Below, piece after piece: positions 7,849 through 13,443 of a stretch of 64,000 nt of DNA. Each line of letters begins with the position of its first letter. The stretch's first letter is position 1. Both the position numbers and the translations under genes were made by a program. Source of the DNA: Oscillospiraceae bacterium (GTDB taxonomy: Bacteria > Bacillota > Clostridia > Oscillospirales > Ruminococcaceae); assembly GCA_017559185.1 (NCBI GenBank), contig JAFYSU010000055.1, forward strand, positions 1 through 64,000. The letters run 5' to 3'. The notes under the pieces are model-generated. The model was not told where the DNA came from. It searched no databases and was given only the letters and a program-made list of their open reading frames with translations.

Positions 7849-9471
7849 TTATTTAGGAATTAATTGAAGTATCTGCTCGATATTCTTTTTACCAAATGAA
7901 ATTTGATTATCGTTTATTACAAGGCATGGTACACTCATCACCTTATACCGTTCTTTTAAGTCCTCAAAATGCCGAATGTCATACACATGTGCTTTGATAT
8001 AAGGGCTCTCCGCAGCAATACGCTGAGCTGCCACAACCAAATCCGGACACATGGTACACGACAGTGTAACAAGTATCTTCATATCCACGGTATTTTTGAT
8101 TGAGTTTATTTGCTGTTTTACATCATCGCTTATTTTCTGACCCGAGCCTGCAGCGTTATATAACCCAAGTACAAAAGAAGTGAATTCATGACCGGTTGGT
8201 ACACCATGGAAAGCCAGTCCGGTTTGTGTACCATCTGCCCTGCACACCATAACGCATGGAAGATTTTCACTGTATGAGTTATCTTTGTCAACATAAACCG
8301 TAAGCTTATCGGACAAATCCGCTAAAGCTGTAATAAACTTCTCCAGTTCTTTAGACACTGGACGATTATCCAAATGCAGTTTCAGCTGAAGTGAGTTTTC
8401 CATACGAGAAAATACTGTATCCAGCTGCTCACGCATCTCGTGGGTAAACAGCTCACCTATTTCGCTTGTTTCCTGCGCTGTGACACCAATAGTCGCTTGG
8501 TTAGATTTTGGCAAAGGTGCATTTGTACGCAATCCGGTTTTTCGCTGCATTTCAGCAACATATTTTTCCAGTTCCGTTGCAGCCATTGCACCATCACCGA
8601 CAGCTGTAACCACCTGACGCAAAGGTTTGATACACACATCCCCCGCTGCATATACACCATCTGCACTGGTTTTCTGCGAAGTATCGGTCACAATATAACC
8701 ATGTTCATTCAATTCAATCGTACCTTTAAGTATTTCGGTGGCAGGTGCATAGCCTGCAAATACAAACACACCTAAGGTTTCGTTGCTTTTATATTCCGTA
8801 ACCTTTCCGGTGACGGTGTTTTTATATCGAACATAGTTAAGACCGTTTTCTCCGGAAACTTCTTCCATAACAGTATTTGTAAGAACGGTTATTTTTTCAT
8901 GATTTTTTGCTTGCTCCGCAACCGAGGCCGCACACGAAAAATCATTCTTTCGGACAAGAATTGTTACATGACGGGCAAATTTTGTAAGAAACACGCTTTC
9001 CTCCGCTGCGGCATAACCGCCGCCCACTACAAATACTTCCTTATCGGTAAAAAATTCACCGTCACAGGTAGCACAGTAGGCAACACCCCTGCCCTTGTGT
9101 TCTTCCTCACCTTTAAAGCCCACACTTCTTGGGTGCGCACCTGTGGCTATCAGTACCCCAAAACAGCGAAAATCTCCCCGATTTGTGCGAACAGTCTTTA
9201 TATTTTCGCTTAGGTCAAAGCCTGTAACCTCAGCTATCATAAACTCCGCACCAAAATATTCCGCCTGCTTTTGCATGGTATCGGTAAGGGCTTTACCACT
9301 GGTCTTTAAAATTCCCGGATAGTTTACTACCTCGTGAGTAATGGTAATCTGACCGCCAAGCTGTTCCTTTTCCAAAACCAACACGCGGTATTTTGCTCGG
9401 GCAAGGTAAATGGCTGCCGTAAGTCCAGCAGGACCACCGCCTACCACAACCACATCATACAAATTTTCCAT
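7849..9471 (-). CDS. AhpF-like flavoprotein disulfide reductase with C-terminal thiol domain
   Basis: Predicted NAD(P)H-dependent electron donor to the adjacent peroxiredoxin. The N-terminal two thirds is a thioredoxin-reductase module: FAD site GGGPAG (11-16), redox pair CATC (C133/C136), NAD(P)H site VVGGGYAA (148-155) and the second FAD motif AAGDV (275-279). From about residue 340 comes a double thioredoxin-fold domain like the N-terminal domain of E. coli AhpF, with its own CTMC pair (C472/C475). The domain order is thus reversed relative to AhpF. This matches the TIGR03143 'AhpF homologue' family, which is typically encoded next to a sole AhpC. Its ATG shares one base with the ahpC stop codon, so translation is coupled. 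Confidence 0.92.
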   Translation of the reverse strand: MENLYDVVVVGGGPAGLTAAIYLARAKYRVLVLEKEQLGGQITITHEVVNYPGILKTSGKALTDTMQKQAEYFGAEFMIAEVTGFDLSENIKTVRTNRGDFRCFGVLIATGAHPRSVGFKGEEEHKGRGVAYCATCDGEFFTDKEVFVVGGGYAAAEESVFLTKFARHVTILVRKNDFSCAASVAEQAKNHEKITVLTNTVMEEVSGENGLNYVRYKNTVTGKVTEYKSNETLGVFVFAGYAPATEILKGTIELNEHGYIVTDTSQKTSADGVYAAGDVCIKPLRQVVTAVGDGAMAATELEKYVAEMQRKTGLRTNAPLPKSNQATIGVTAQETSEIGELFTHEMREQLDTVFSRMENSLQLKLHLDNRPVSKELEKFITALADLSDKLTVYVDKDNSYSENLPCVMVCRADGTQTGLAFHGVPTGHEFTSFVLGLYNAAGSGQKISDDVKQQINSIKNTVDMKILVTLSCTMCPDLVVAAQRIAAESPYIKAHVYDIRHFEDLKERYKVMSVPCLVINDNQISFGKKNIEQILQLIPK

Positions 9472-10034
9472 TACAACTGCCCTACCAAATCCAAGCTTGG
9501 TTTCAAAGTTTCCGCACCTGGCTTCCAGTTAGCAGGACAAACTTGATCGCCGTGGGCGTGTACAAACTGACATGCCTGAACTTTACGCAGCAGTTCTTCG
9601 GCATTTCTGCCCACATTACCTGCTGTTACCTCATAACCCACAATTTTGCCATCGGGATTAATGATGAATGTTCCTCTCTCTGCAAGACCGTCTTCCTCTA
9701 TCAAAACCTCAAAATCTTTGGAAATTGCATGGGTTGGGTCTGCCAGCATTGGGTAATTAATCTTCTTAATACGGTCAGATGCATCGTGCCATGCCTTATG
9801 AACAAAATGTGTATCGGTAGATACAGAATAAACCTCACAGCCTATAGCTTTAAACTGTTCATATTTGTCTGCTAAATCCTCGAGCTCTGTAGGACAAACA
9901 AAGGTAAAGTCAGCAGGATAAAAGAAAAATACACTCCATTTACCCATAATATCTTTTTTAGACACAAATTTAAAATCGTTTTCGTGGAATGCATAGGTGC
10001 GAAAATCTGAAACTTCTTTATTTATCATAGACAT
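9471..10034 (-). CDS. ahpC: Alkyl hydroperoxide peroxidase AhpC (2-Cys peroxiredoxin)
   Basis: Cytoplasmic peroxidase reducing H2O2, organic hydroperoxides and probably peroxynitrite. The 187 residues match typical AhpC length. The peroxidatic cysteine is C47 in DFTFVCPTE and the resolving cysteine is C166 in QVCPANW, so this is a typical 2-Cys enzyme. The gene is the middle member of an operon: desulfoferrodoxin three bases upstream and its presumed reductase overlapping downstream. Superoxide would be reduced to peroxide by the first gene product and the peroxide removed by this one. Confidence 0.97.
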   Translation of the reverse strand: MSMINKEVSDFRTYAFHENDFKFVSKKDIMGKWSVFFFYPADFTFVCPTELEDLADKYEQFKAIGCEVYSVSTDTHFVHKAWHDASDRIKKINYPMLADPTHAISKDFEVLIEEDGLAERGTFIINPDGKIVGYEVTAGNVGRNAEELLRKVQACQFVHAHGDQVCPANWKPGAETLKPSLDLVGQL

Positions 10035-10037
10035 AAA

Positions 10038-10412
10038 TTAATTCCTCCAAAGATCATGTTGATTACAAAACGCGTATGCTGCCCGTACCTCGTCACCTTC
10101 ACAGACAGCAAATTTTGCTTTAGGCTTATCATTGGGGTCCAAATGGGCATACTGAATACCATGTTCGGTTTCCAAGCAAATCCACTCGATATAATGCTCC
10201 TTGGACATAGGATGTTCCACCTCGCCCACGCTGACATGAACAATGTTGTTCTTAATTTCGTATACAGGTACATGTTTTTCTTCAGACGCTTCGGTGGTGT
10301 CAGGGGTTATCTCATGCATTTTCTCACCACAACAGTAAAGAGGCACTCCCTTGTTGCGAATCATTGCAACAATATTACCGCAGTGTTTACAAATATAAAA
10401 TTTTTGCTTCAT
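10038..10412 (-). CDS. dfx: Desulfoferrodoxin (superoxide reductase)
   Basis: Non-haem iron enzyme reducing superoxide to hydrogen peroxide without releasing oxygen, typical of anaerobes. At 124 residues it is the two-domain form. The N-terminal desulforedoxin-like centre I has cysteines C8, C11, C27 and C28. The SOR domain has centre II ligands H47 (EKHVP), H67 (HPM), H73, C116 and H119 (CNQH), with E45 and K46 beside the site. All ligands are present and spaced as in Desulfovibrio Dfx. The ATG was chosen because AAGGAGG precedes it; a longer reading adds 17 unlikely residues. It leads the dfx-ahpC-reductase operon. Confidence 0.96.
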   Translation of the reverse strand: MKQKFYICKHCGNIVAMIRNKGVPLYCCGEKMHEITPDTTEASEEKHVPVYEIKNNIVHVSVGEVEHPMSKEHYIEWICLETEHGIQYAHLDPNDKPKAKFAVCEGDEVRAAYAFCNQHDLWRN

Positions 10413-10578
10413 AAAAAACCTCCTTCTGAAAAAAGTGTGTCCAAAACTTTGTAAATAATTCACATTAATTTGAACACACTATCATTAATGAATTAATCCC
10501 GAAGAAAATTGTTCCATTCCGTTCAATATCTATGCGGTACTCTTTGGGGCAAAAATCTATAATAAAGGAAGAAATAAT
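10413..10578. promoter_or_regulatory. Divergent promoter region, dfx operon / SDR gene
   Basis: This 166-base region must hold both promoters. A ten-base palindrome, TCATTAATGA, lies at 10482-10491. It is AT-rich like PerR-type sites but does not match the PerR box closely. TATAAT occurs at 10558-10563, probably too close to the SDR start to be its -10 element. Confidence 0.35.
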
Positions 10579-11376
10579 ATGAGATTGAAAGATAAAGTTG
10601 TATTGGTCACTGCTTCTACTCGCGGTATTGGTCTTGCATGTGTGAAAGCTTGTGCAAAGGAAGGTGCCGTTGTTTACATGGCTGCAAGAAATTTACAGCA
10701 AGCACAAGCAATTGCAGACAGTCTTAATTCAGAGGGCTGCAAAGTAAAATGTGTATTTAACGACGCAACTAAACCTGAAACCTTTTACTCCATGGTGGAG
10801 GATGTAGTAAAGCAAGAAAGCCGCATTGATGTATTGGTTAATAATTTCGGAGGCTCTAATCCTGCTAAGGATATGGACTTTGCCAATACCGATTGCTCTG
10901 TGTTCTTGGATACCATTAATCTAAACCTGAGAAGTGTGTTTATGGCAAGCCAAGCAGCGGCAAAATATATGGCTGTACAAAAAGGCGGCAGCATAATCAA
11001 CATTTCCTCTGTCAGCAGCATTGTCGCAGATATTTCTCAGGTTGCTTACGGAACAAGCAAAGCGGCAATAAACCATCTTACCAAATTAATCGCTGTTCAA
11101 GAAGCAAAGCATAATATACGCTGTAATGCAGTGCTTCCCGGAATGACCGCCACAGATGCAATGGAAAATTTCTTATCGCAGGAATTCCGCAGCCTGTTCT
11201 TGCGTAACATTCCACTTAACAGAATGGGATTACCTGATGAAATTGCTGCCGCTGTAGTATATTTAGCAAGTGATGAAGCCTCGTACACTACCGGACAACT
11301 GTTGGCTGTATCCGGTGGTTTCGGAGTAGCAACACCGTTATACAGTGAGTTATTTGATAAAAAATTTCGCAGATAA
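10579..11376 (+). CDS. SDR oxidoreductase resembling 7-alpha-hydroxysteroid dehydrogenase
   Basis: Classical short-chain dehydrogenase of 265 residues. The cofactor loop is TASTRGIG (11-18) rather than TGxxxGIG. R15 and R37 (YMAARN) suggest NADP(H). The NNFGG motif is at 89-92 onward, catalytic Ser is S144 and the YxxxK pair is Y157/K161. Several stretches (TASTRGIG, AYGTSKAAIN, NIRCNAVLPG, the C-terminal GGFGVATP) agree with my memory of the clostridial bile-acid 7-alpha-HSDH group of C. absonum/sardiniense more than with generic FabG. Substrate identity is inference; other steroid or keto substrates are possible. GAAGGAAGA precedes the start. It is divergent from the oxygen-defence operon. 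Confidence 0.82.
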   Translation: MRLKDKVVLVTASTRGIGLACVKACAKEGAVVYMAARNLQQAQAIADSLNSEGCKVKCVFNDATKPETFYSMVEDVVKQESRIDVLVNNFGGSNPAKDMDFANTDCSVFLDTINLNLRSVFMASQAAAKYMAVQKGGSIINISSVSSIVADISQVAYGTSKAAINHLTKLIAVQEAKHNIRCNAVLPGMTATDAMENFLSQEFRSLFLRNIPLNRMGLPDEIAAAVVYLASDEASYTTGQLLAVSGGFGVATPLYSELFDKKFRR

Positions 11377-11499: not shown

Positions 11500-13380
11500 T
11501 TACAGGTTGCGTACATCCTGTCTGATAGACTGAGACACTTCACTTACACTACGGCTCTGTTCAGAAATTTCTTCCGTTGTTTCCGCAATATGTGTAATTT
11601 TTTCGTTCAGTACGGAAATGCTTTCCAAAAGTCGCTTAATAGCTTCAACGCTACCGTTTATTTTTGGTATTGTGTTAGTTGCCTGTGTTTCGTTTTCGCT
11701 AATCAATTCGGTTGTGGAATTCGCAAGGTTTCTTACTTCACCTGCAACAACCGCAAAACCTTTACCCTGTTCACCTGCTTTTGCAGCTTCAATGCTTGCA
11801 TTTATACTAAGCAGGTTGGTCATGCTTGCAACATTGGCAATGTCATCGTTGCTCTTACGGTATATATCTACAAATTCAGCAAACAGCTTAAGGGAATCAT
11901 TTATCGCATCACATTGTTCGCTAATTTCGTTCATTGTGCAAATAACCTGATTTACATCTTCGGCTGTCATTGTATTGGCTTGTGCAAGCTGTCTTACACT
12001 GCGGTTAAGGCTAACAAAATCGTTTGCAATCTTTTCTATTTTTGCATAACGTACATTTGTTTCGGCAACATTGTCGGCATGGAGTTTTTCAATTTCTTCA
12101 CGCTCTTTTTCAGCAAGAGCCTTAACATAGTGTATGCAGTTTTCTTTAACATTCGCACCACTGTGAATTGCCATAGCCATATGTTTACATGTAGCATATC
12201 CGCAAGACGAACAGTCGATATGGCGTGATTCTACGGTAGTTTTTCCCATAGCATTGAAAATCTCGTCAAATTCGCGCTCGCTCAGCATAGGAATATTTAT
12301 TTTTTTATTGGTGTATTCGCGTTTAAAGTCGTTAATATCAAGACCTTTAAACTGCTTGCAGAAATTATTCCATCTGCGCTTTAATGACAATGAATTATCC
12401 CATGGTGTTTTCTTTAATCCAAAGGTTTTGTCTGCCACAAGCTTATTCATATCGTTTATGGCAATTTCAACATCTATGTCGTTAATTCTGTCATCGGTAG
12501 CCGAACCGCGGATACAGCCCTTTTGACAATTCAAAATATCCACCATAAAAGGAAGATTGTTTTTGCGGTGTGTGTACTCCTGAAGGAATTTGTATGCTTC
12601 AGCTTCACCTTCTACCTGCAAAACGGAAACCTTATTACCAAGGAAAAAGTGCACACACTCTTTAAGACCGCCCGGTTTTGGATATCTTGCACCCAAACCG
12701 TATGTGGACTCTTCTTCCGCTTCTGGAGCAGACATATATTTACTTCCTATTGCTTCCATAAGCTTTTTAAAGGTTACATTATATTTTACATATCCATGTG
12801 TATTTTTATCGGTTATTTCAAGTTTTTTTGCAATACAAGGACTAAGGAACACAAGGTCTTCCCTAACATTTTTGTACTTTTTAAGGTAAATTGCTTCCTG
12901 CATCATTGGGCTGTGCAAAGGAACCAGCATTGGTATAAGCTCCGGCTGATATTTTTCTATGTAATTTACAATAGCAGGGCATGGCTGACTAATGAGTCCC
13001 TGCTTGCCTGTTTGTTTAAGGTAAGAAATATATGACCATGTAGTAATATCCGCACCAAAGCTAACACTGTAAATATGTGCTACACCCAGTGATTTAAGGT
13101 ATCCGTAAATTTTTTTATATGTTTTGGGATAGTTTGCAATAAATGCAGGTGCAACAATTACCGAAAGCTTTTTACCTGCTTTCAAATCATTCAAGAAACG
13201 AACGGTATCATCTTCGTAGTCTCTTGCTCCGTGTCTGCAGTTATCAAAGCATGCACCGCATTGTATACATATTTTTTCATTTACATCAATTCTATTTCCG
13301 CGTGCAGTATTTGCAAGGAACACCGGACAAGACCTTATACATTTGTTACAGCCAACACATTTTTCATTAGTAAATATCAT
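11500..13380 (-). CDS. Ferredoxin / [FeFe]-hydrogenase-like / chemoreceptor signalling fusion
   Basis: Soluble multidomain protein of 626 residues. Residues 1-55 are two [4Fe-4S] ferredoxin motifs (C8, C11, C14, C18; C38, C41, C44, C48). About 70-330 is an [FeFe]-hydrogenase large-subunit domain whose H-cluster ligands are kept: C134 (QPCPA), C182 (SPCIAKKLE), C285 and C289 (NCQKGC). The cysteine that normally precedes C134 in TSCCP and shuttles protons is proline here. Residues 388-418 form a further Fe-S motif (C390, C393, C398, C415). From about 450 there is a coiled-coil methyl-accepting chemotaxis signalling domain with the hairpin tip EAAKAGEQGKGFAVVAGEVR at 531-550. There is no membrane segment. 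I infer a cytoplasmic H2 or redox sensor rather than a catabolic hydrogenase. Confidence 0.88.
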   Translation of the reverse strand: MIFTNEKCVGCNKCIRSCPVFLANTARGNRIDVNEKICIQCGACFDNCRHGARDYEDDTVRFLNDLKAGKKLSVIVAPAFIANYPKTYKKIYGYLKSLGVAHIYSVSFGADITTWSYISYLKQTGKQGLISQPCPAIVNYIEKYQPELIPMLVPLHSPMMQEAIYLKKYKNVREDLVFLSPCIAKKLEITDKNTHGYVKYNVTFKKLMEAIGSKYMSAPEAEEESTYGLGARYPKPGGLKECVHFFLGNKVSVLQVEGEAEAYKFLQEYTHRKNNLPFMVDILNCQKGCIRGSATDDRINDIDVEIAINDMNKLVADKTFGLKKTPWDNSLSLKRRWNNFCKQFKGLDINDFKREYTNKKINIPMLSEREFDEIFNAMGKTTVESRHIDCSSCGYATCKHMAMAIHSGANVKENCIHYVKALAEKEREEIEKLHADNVAETNVRYAKIEKIANDFVSLNRSVRQLAQANTMTAEDVNQVICTMNEISEQCDAINDSLKLFAEFVDIYRKSNDDIANVASMTNLLSINASIEAAKAGEQGKGFAVVAGEVRNLANSTTELISENETQATNTIPKINGSVEAIKRLLESISVLNEKITHIAETTEEISEQSRSVSEVSQSIRQDVRNL

Positions 13381-13443
13381 TTATGTTTCCCCTTACACAT
13401 ATTTAAAATGTTAATTACAAAAAAATCCTCTGACCTATTTTAA

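Follow-up and report, generated by a model that had tools for sequence, protein, structure and literature searches.

The window, by which is meant the whole 64,000-nucleotide stretch of gut-bacterial DNA analysed here, carries on its reverse strand a gene for a 626-residue protein in which a two-cluster ferredoxin domain, an [FeFe]-hydrogenase H-domain, a further FeS domain and the signalling part of a methyl-accepting chemotaxis protein (MCP) are fused in a single chain (Table 1). The matches to all four parts exceed the Pfam gathering scores (4Fe-4S dicluster, residues 2-48/52; Fe_hyd_lg_C, residues 70-292, 4.7e-36; FeS/PF04060, residues 388-416; MCPsignal, residues 483-619, 4.1e-20). The Fe_hyd_lg_C fold and the four H-cluster cysteines place the protein in the [FeFe]-hydrogenase superfamily, while the MCPsignal hairpin, the conserved tip and the presence of CheA and CheW in the genome identify it equally as a methyl-accepting chemotaxis protein.

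Table 1. Features of the sensor gene and its product, with positions in the window.
Feature	Position	Strand	Evidence
Whole gene, ferredoxin / H-domain / FeS / MCP fusion, 626 aa, ATG start	11500..13380	(-)	ORF + Pfam
Ribosome binding site AAGGGG, 8 bases 5' of ATG	13389..13394	(-)	Sequence read
Two-[4Fe-4S] ferredoxin domain, residues 2-52 (C8 C11 C14 C18 / C38 C41 C44 C48)	13225..13377	(-)	Pfam Fer4 models
[FeFe]-hydrogenase H-domain, residues 70-292	12505..13173	(-)	Fe_hyd_lg_C 4.7e-36; Foldseek to CbA5H 1e-16
Loop 1, Q132-P133-C134 (C134 = CpI C300; Pro at CpI C299 site)	12979..12987	(-)	QPC in 27/27 members
Loop 2, S180-P-C182-I-A-K185-K-L-E188 (C182 = CpI C355, K185 = CpI K358)	12817..12843	(-)	C 27/27, K 26/27
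Loop 3, D281-I-L283-N-C285-..-C289 (C285, C289 = CpI C499, C503; L283 at CpI M497)	12505..12540	(-)	Residue table
C-terminal FeS domain, C390, C393, C398, C415	12133..12219	(-)	PF04060; four Cys invariant
Chemoreceptor helical hairpin, helices 416-534 and 536-625	11503..12135	(-)	AlphaFold2 pLDDT 86; MCPsignal
Signalling tip, residues 525-545 (SINASIEAAKAGEQGKGFAVV)	11746..11808	(-)	N527, E531, G536, G539, F542 invariant

The original prediction had described a protein with no membrane anchor, with all four H-cluster ligands, with proline in place of the cysteine that precedes the first of these, and with a chemoreceptor signalling part at its C-terminus. Each of these features was borne out: C134, C182, C285 and C289 are present, residue 133 is proline, no membrane helix was found in the 626 residues (the mean hydropathy of 19-residue segments nowhere exceeds 0.99), and the MCPsignal region is modelled as a hairpin by AlphaFold2. 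The C-terminal FeS domain, with its cysteines at 390, 393, 398 and 415, is an addition to the features named at that time. In the AlphaFold2 model, for which 25 full-length relatives served as input (mean pLDDT 86), the MCP hairpin begins directly at the FeS domain without a HAMP or PAS domain in between, and Foldseek finds that the model resembles group A hydrogenases, the top match being CbA5H (1e-16).

The fusion is not a product of chance, because the identical architecture, together with Q132-P133-C134, recurs in 27/27 aligned members, drawn from several families, of what is here called the QPC clade, a working name taken from the invariant Gln-Pro-Cys loop. The eight ferredoxin cysteines are likewise invariant or almost so among the aligned members. 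The fusion architecture is strongly supported, and it can be said with high confidence that the window protein is real, sensory and linked to a chemoreceptor.

Gene neighbourhood was considered as a functional clue and rejected, since among 34 loci no neighbour of the QPC-clade gene occurs more than three times. A convergent short-chain dehydrogenase (SDR) gene adjoins the sensor gene both in the window and in one other locus (L134), but the two SDRs are only 30% identical and the shared neighbour is taken as chance. The SDR of the window (10579-11376, forward strand) matches NF049979 (7alpha-hydroxysteroid dehydrogenase) with 401.7 bits against a cut-off of 350, and to judge from this match it is likely to be a bile-acid enzyme encoded beside the sensor gene. 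At 7849-10463 on the reverse strand, genes for a desulfoferrodoxin, an AhpC peroxiredoxin and an AhpF-like reductase follow in series and form an oxidative-stress cluster near the sensor gene.

The QPC clade and its active site

When a tree was computed from the H-domain alone, the 27 QPC proteins grouped together at 100/100 and separately from the rows for groups A, B, C and D, which had been assigned here by motif, length and domain content and not from HydDB. Clustering with the catalytic hydrogenases, one of the outcomes that the original prediction had set against itself, is ruled out at this support, and Q-P-C stands where the catalytic groups A and B have their TSCCP loop. The clade is equally separate from TmHydS-type proteins of group C, in that no PAS domain follows the FeS domain of the window protein, and from TamHydS-type proteins of group D, in that proline occupies the C299 site and leucine, in 26/27 members, the column of E252. 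The original prediction was upheld in that the protein is soluble, of a sensory [FeFe] type and equipped with a chemoreceptor output; it belongs neither to group C nor to group D, having a clade of its own. Since Gln-Pro-Cys is present in loop 1 of all 27 members, the proline is a stable trait of these proteins and no slip of a single gene. A whole-genome survey detected the same sensor head (E <= 1e-75) in 20 genomes out of 392 sampled from the class, with further cases in the relatives set, and the QPC clade is a distinct and widespread branch.

Equivalences to the group A hydrogenase CpI were read from a profile alignment and a residue table covering the 27 clade members, and the four H-cluster cysteines are kept in every one of these. 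In CpI the diiron subsite is held by Pro231, Ser323, Pro324 and Lys358; the corresponding P78, S157 and P158 are each kept in 27/27 members and K185 in 26/27. Other CpI residues have been exchanged in the clade, namely C299 for Pro, S298 for Gln, M353 for Ser and M497 for Leu, and the group A proton path E279/E282/R286 has also been replaced. The proton relay of group D involves E252 (PMC10407848), and was scored as the pattern S/T249-x-x-E252 and D265, with Ala at C299; among the group D rows used, glutamate fills the E252 column in 8/8, 6/8 have Ser or Thr three residues earlier, and 6/8 have Asp at +13. This relay, too, is missing from the clade, and Glu257, which is present in 26/27 members, is a candidate proton relay that may be peculiar to it.

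The loss of the proton-shuttle cysteine, to which the original prediction had drawn attention, was duly observed, but has little meaning alone, because proline is already found at the C299 position in ~10% of HydDB sensory sequences (PMC10055695). Although M497L in CpI damaged diiron integration (PMC10055695), Leu and Ser at the M497 and M353 positions do not rule out an H-cluster, since the group D protein TamHydS has both of these residues, binds the H-cluster and turns over H2 slowly (PMC11803613). L283 and S180 of the window protein correspond to L291 and S191 of TamHydS.

Output domains and the chemotaxis genes of the host

The majority of the 35 members of the clade (27 proteins from 24 genomes) have the QPC head fused to an MCP. 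The same head is joined to a histidine kinase in four proteins (L062, L063, L137 and L154) and to a GGDEF domain in one (L025), and in two others (L064 and L065) it is accompanied by no recognised output domain. In the H-domain tree the GGDEF form belongs to the tight group immediately around the window protein, which indicates that this swap is recent. A constant head with exchangeable outputs is what characterises an input module. In one genome (G375; L135, 6179-10162, reverse strand) two clearly different QPC-clade genes lie in tandem, a pairing that points to a cell with two distinct set-points or ligands.

The MCP form is accompanied by CheA. All 24 genomes with this form have CheA, against two of the five that have other outputs only (Fisher p = 0.003), and in the 81-genome relatives set it is present in 5/5 MCP-form genomes as against 20/76 others (p = 0.002); in the wider set, an ORF of ~670-740 residues with a CheW domain was taken to be CheA, and both p-values are guides only because the genomes are related. 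A rival reading is that the window protein is a working catalytic hydrogenase whose MCP part serves for placement only. Such a role would agree with the retention of the four H-cluster cysteines and the ferredoxin clusters, but outputs are exchanged freely, the clade lies apart from groups A and B at 100/100, C299, M353, M497 and the E279/E282/R286 path have been lost, and the host genome has a separate [FeFe]-hydrogenase, the one other found there, with a canonical TSCCPGW loop. A catalytic function is consequently regarded as highly improbable.

CheA and CheW, which the original prediction had proposed to look for in the genome, are both present in the host assembly (1.58 Mb, 86% complete). 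One CheA was found, complete with Hpt, P2, dimerisation, ATPase and CheW domains; it is adjoined by CheW, CheR, CheB and CheD, and further CheW-domain proteins are encoded in the genome besides the CheW at this site. Output of the window protein to CheA is likely. The host has 13 MCPs, the window protein included, and the latter departs from the others in that the arm following its tip is 88 residues long (83-101 in most relatives) as against at least 122 in the host's other receptors, and in that its tip has Lys in place of their usual Arg. Eleven of the host receptors L008-L019 have a nearly identical signalling tip, the outliers being the window protein and L019. To judge from the arm length and the tip lysine, the window protein may sit in a separate cytoplasmic cluster. 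The short arm, and the resemblance of most other host tips to one another but not to that of the window protein, would also suit the same sensor having an output other than flagellar taxis, with short cytoplasmic MCPs forming a separate array or using another partner. However, only a single CheA was found in the host genome and the MCP form tracks CheA across genomes, and a non-taxis output is considered improbable.

Maturases and the diiron subsite

Of the HydEFG maturases, for which the original prediction had also proposed a search, HydE (580 bits) and HydF (589 bits) were found in the host genome, whereas HydG was not found above cut-off in this 86%-complete assembly. Among 29 QPC-carrying genomes HydG is above the cut-off in 16 and below it in 13, both nearest relatives included. 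The 12 HydG-negative genomes examined all carry other [FeFe] paralogues, the canonical TSCCP loop having been read directly in nine, and 11 of the 12 are also without HydF. In the relatives set, where six candidates per genome were scored, 41 of 81 genomes are without both HydG and HydF, though nearly all carry H-domains.

A missing HydG was considered as proof that there is no diiron site, and rejected because the same genomes hold canonical hydrogenases and because about half of the relatives are without HydG and HydF in this search. The absence of HydG is accordingly not assignable to the QPC clade, and is general to such genomes or a property of the models used. An intact hydE-hydG-hydF cluster, which includes a TM1266-family regulator, lies ~2.5 kb away from the QPC-clade gene in one genome (G400).

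HydF without HydG occurs in nine relatives-set genomes, among them that of the host. Canonical TSCCP [FeFe]-hydrogenases are found where HydG and HydF are not above cut-offs in the Clostridia genomes G365, G407, G423, G261, G467, G468 and others, several of which are near-complete; the models may overlook a divergent set of maturases, or else maturation takes another route.

A rival explanation is that the protein is a redox (or O2) chemoreceptor with a hydrogenase fold but [4Fe-4S] clusters only, which would have no diiron subsite and be blind to H2. It would account for the invariant proline at the proton-shuttle site and the invariant glutamine before it, for the loss of the proton relays of both group A and group D, and for HydG and HydF scores below the family cut-offs in many carrier genomes, and the desulfoferrodoxin-ahpC-ahpF cluster near the window gene would be in keeping with it. 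The Lys, Ser and Pro residues that hold the diiron cyanides are, however, almost invariant, HydG-less genomes also carry canonical catalytic hydrogenases, and the neighbourhood is unconserved. A sensor with [4Fe-4S] clusters only is therefore judged to be possible, if rather unlikely.

Proposed function and known systems

The best explanation, to which we give about an even chance, is that the window protein is a soluble H2/redox chemoreceptor that feeds the CheA of its host. In its favour are the swapped outputs, the co-occurrence of the MCP form with CheA, the Che system of the host, the residues of the diiron pocket, the leucine and serine shared with TamHydS, the presence of HydE and HydF and the maturase cluster near the gene in G400; against it are the missing HydG, the missing group A and group D proton relays, the leucine at M497 and the deviant tip and arm of the MCP part. 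The original prediction of a cytoplasmic H2 or redox chemoreceptor thus holds insofar as the protein is soluble and sensory with a chemoreceptor output, but H2 as the input signal is only a modest favourite ahead of a redox-only sensor. We infer the metal loading, H2 as ligand, the direction of the signal and the contact with CheA/CheW.

In the proposed mechanism the H-domain would carry an H-cluster, or at minimum its [4Fe-4S] half, and would report H2 or the low-potential redox state of the cell. H2 binding at the H-domain, or its reduction, would bring about a change in both the ferredoxin and the C-terminal FeS domain, and this change would enter the coiled coil through the helix that starts at residue 416. 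The MCP tip would then alter CheA activity via CheW, upon which the cell would move or respond otherwise. In TamHydS, H2 does not reduce the C-terminal cluster and changes in secondary structure are nevertheless observed (PMC13104023), making a conformational path likelier than an electron path; by analogy, the C-terminal FeS domain of the window protein may not convey the signal as electrons.

More broadly, the QPC clade could be an additional sensory branch of the [FeFe]-hydrogenase fold, as yet without a name, in which the diiron subsite has been abandoned or is used in an unfamiliar form, and which provides a plug-in intracellular redox head for chemotaxis, two-component and cyclic-di-GMP outputs, a proposal that we offer tentatively and hold on balance to be unlikely. 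H2 is a main currency of gut fermentation, and the clade offers a soluble, single-gene candidate H2 chemoreceptor whose output, CheA activity, is measurable in the test tube. The natural series of output swaps, with a GGDEF form among the closest relatives, could reveal whether the head alone senses. As groups C and D are distinct from the clade, it also bears on the question of whether the hydrogenase fold has been converted to a sensor repeatedly.

Redox or energy input to CheA is familiar from energy-taxis receptors, for example the soluble TlpD and the membrane-bound Aer, which have zinc-binding or FAD-PAS heads. The window protein would have the route from redox or energy state to CheA in common with these receptors, but their heads are not of the hydrogenase fold. 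With CpI and CbA5H of group A it shares the H-domain fold and the four ligating cysteines, whereas their C299, E279, E282, R286, M353 and M497 have all been exchanged. TmHydS of Thermotoga maritima (group C) is alike in its ferredoxin clusters, its H-domain without C299 and its C-terminal FeS domain, but differs in having a PAS domain and Ala at C299 (PMC10055695), and group C relatives of the PAS type fall into a clade apart from it. TamHydS of Thermoanaerobacter mathranii (group D) likewise has Leu at M497, Ser at M353, a C-terminal [4Fe-4S] cluster and no PAS domain (PMC10407848, PMC11803613, PMC13104023); it differs in its Ala at C299, its E252 relay and its lack of an output domain, the QPC clade having Pro and Leu at these two positions.

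The nearest counterpart in classification is HydDB [FeFe] group C2, 'Chemotactic (putative)', a class defined computationally, for which H2 sensing through methyl-accepting chemotaxis proteins is predicted (PMC5037454). In predicted MCP-linked sensing the two are alike, a comparison made with the one-line description of that class, but the QPC clade differs from the description in that it also holds histidine-kinase and GGDEF forms. In the literature, we found neither a tested member of the C2 class, or H2 chemoreceptor of such a kind, nor a report of a demonstrated bacterial H2 chemoreceptor. Given group C2 (PMC5037454) and the ~10% of sensory sequences with proline (PMC10055695), members of the QPC clade are very likely to be present in databases already, and H2 chemoreceptors as an idea have been put forward before. 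New here are the standing of these proteins as a separate clade, distinct from groups C and D, the interchangeability of their outputs, and the association of the MCP form with CheA.
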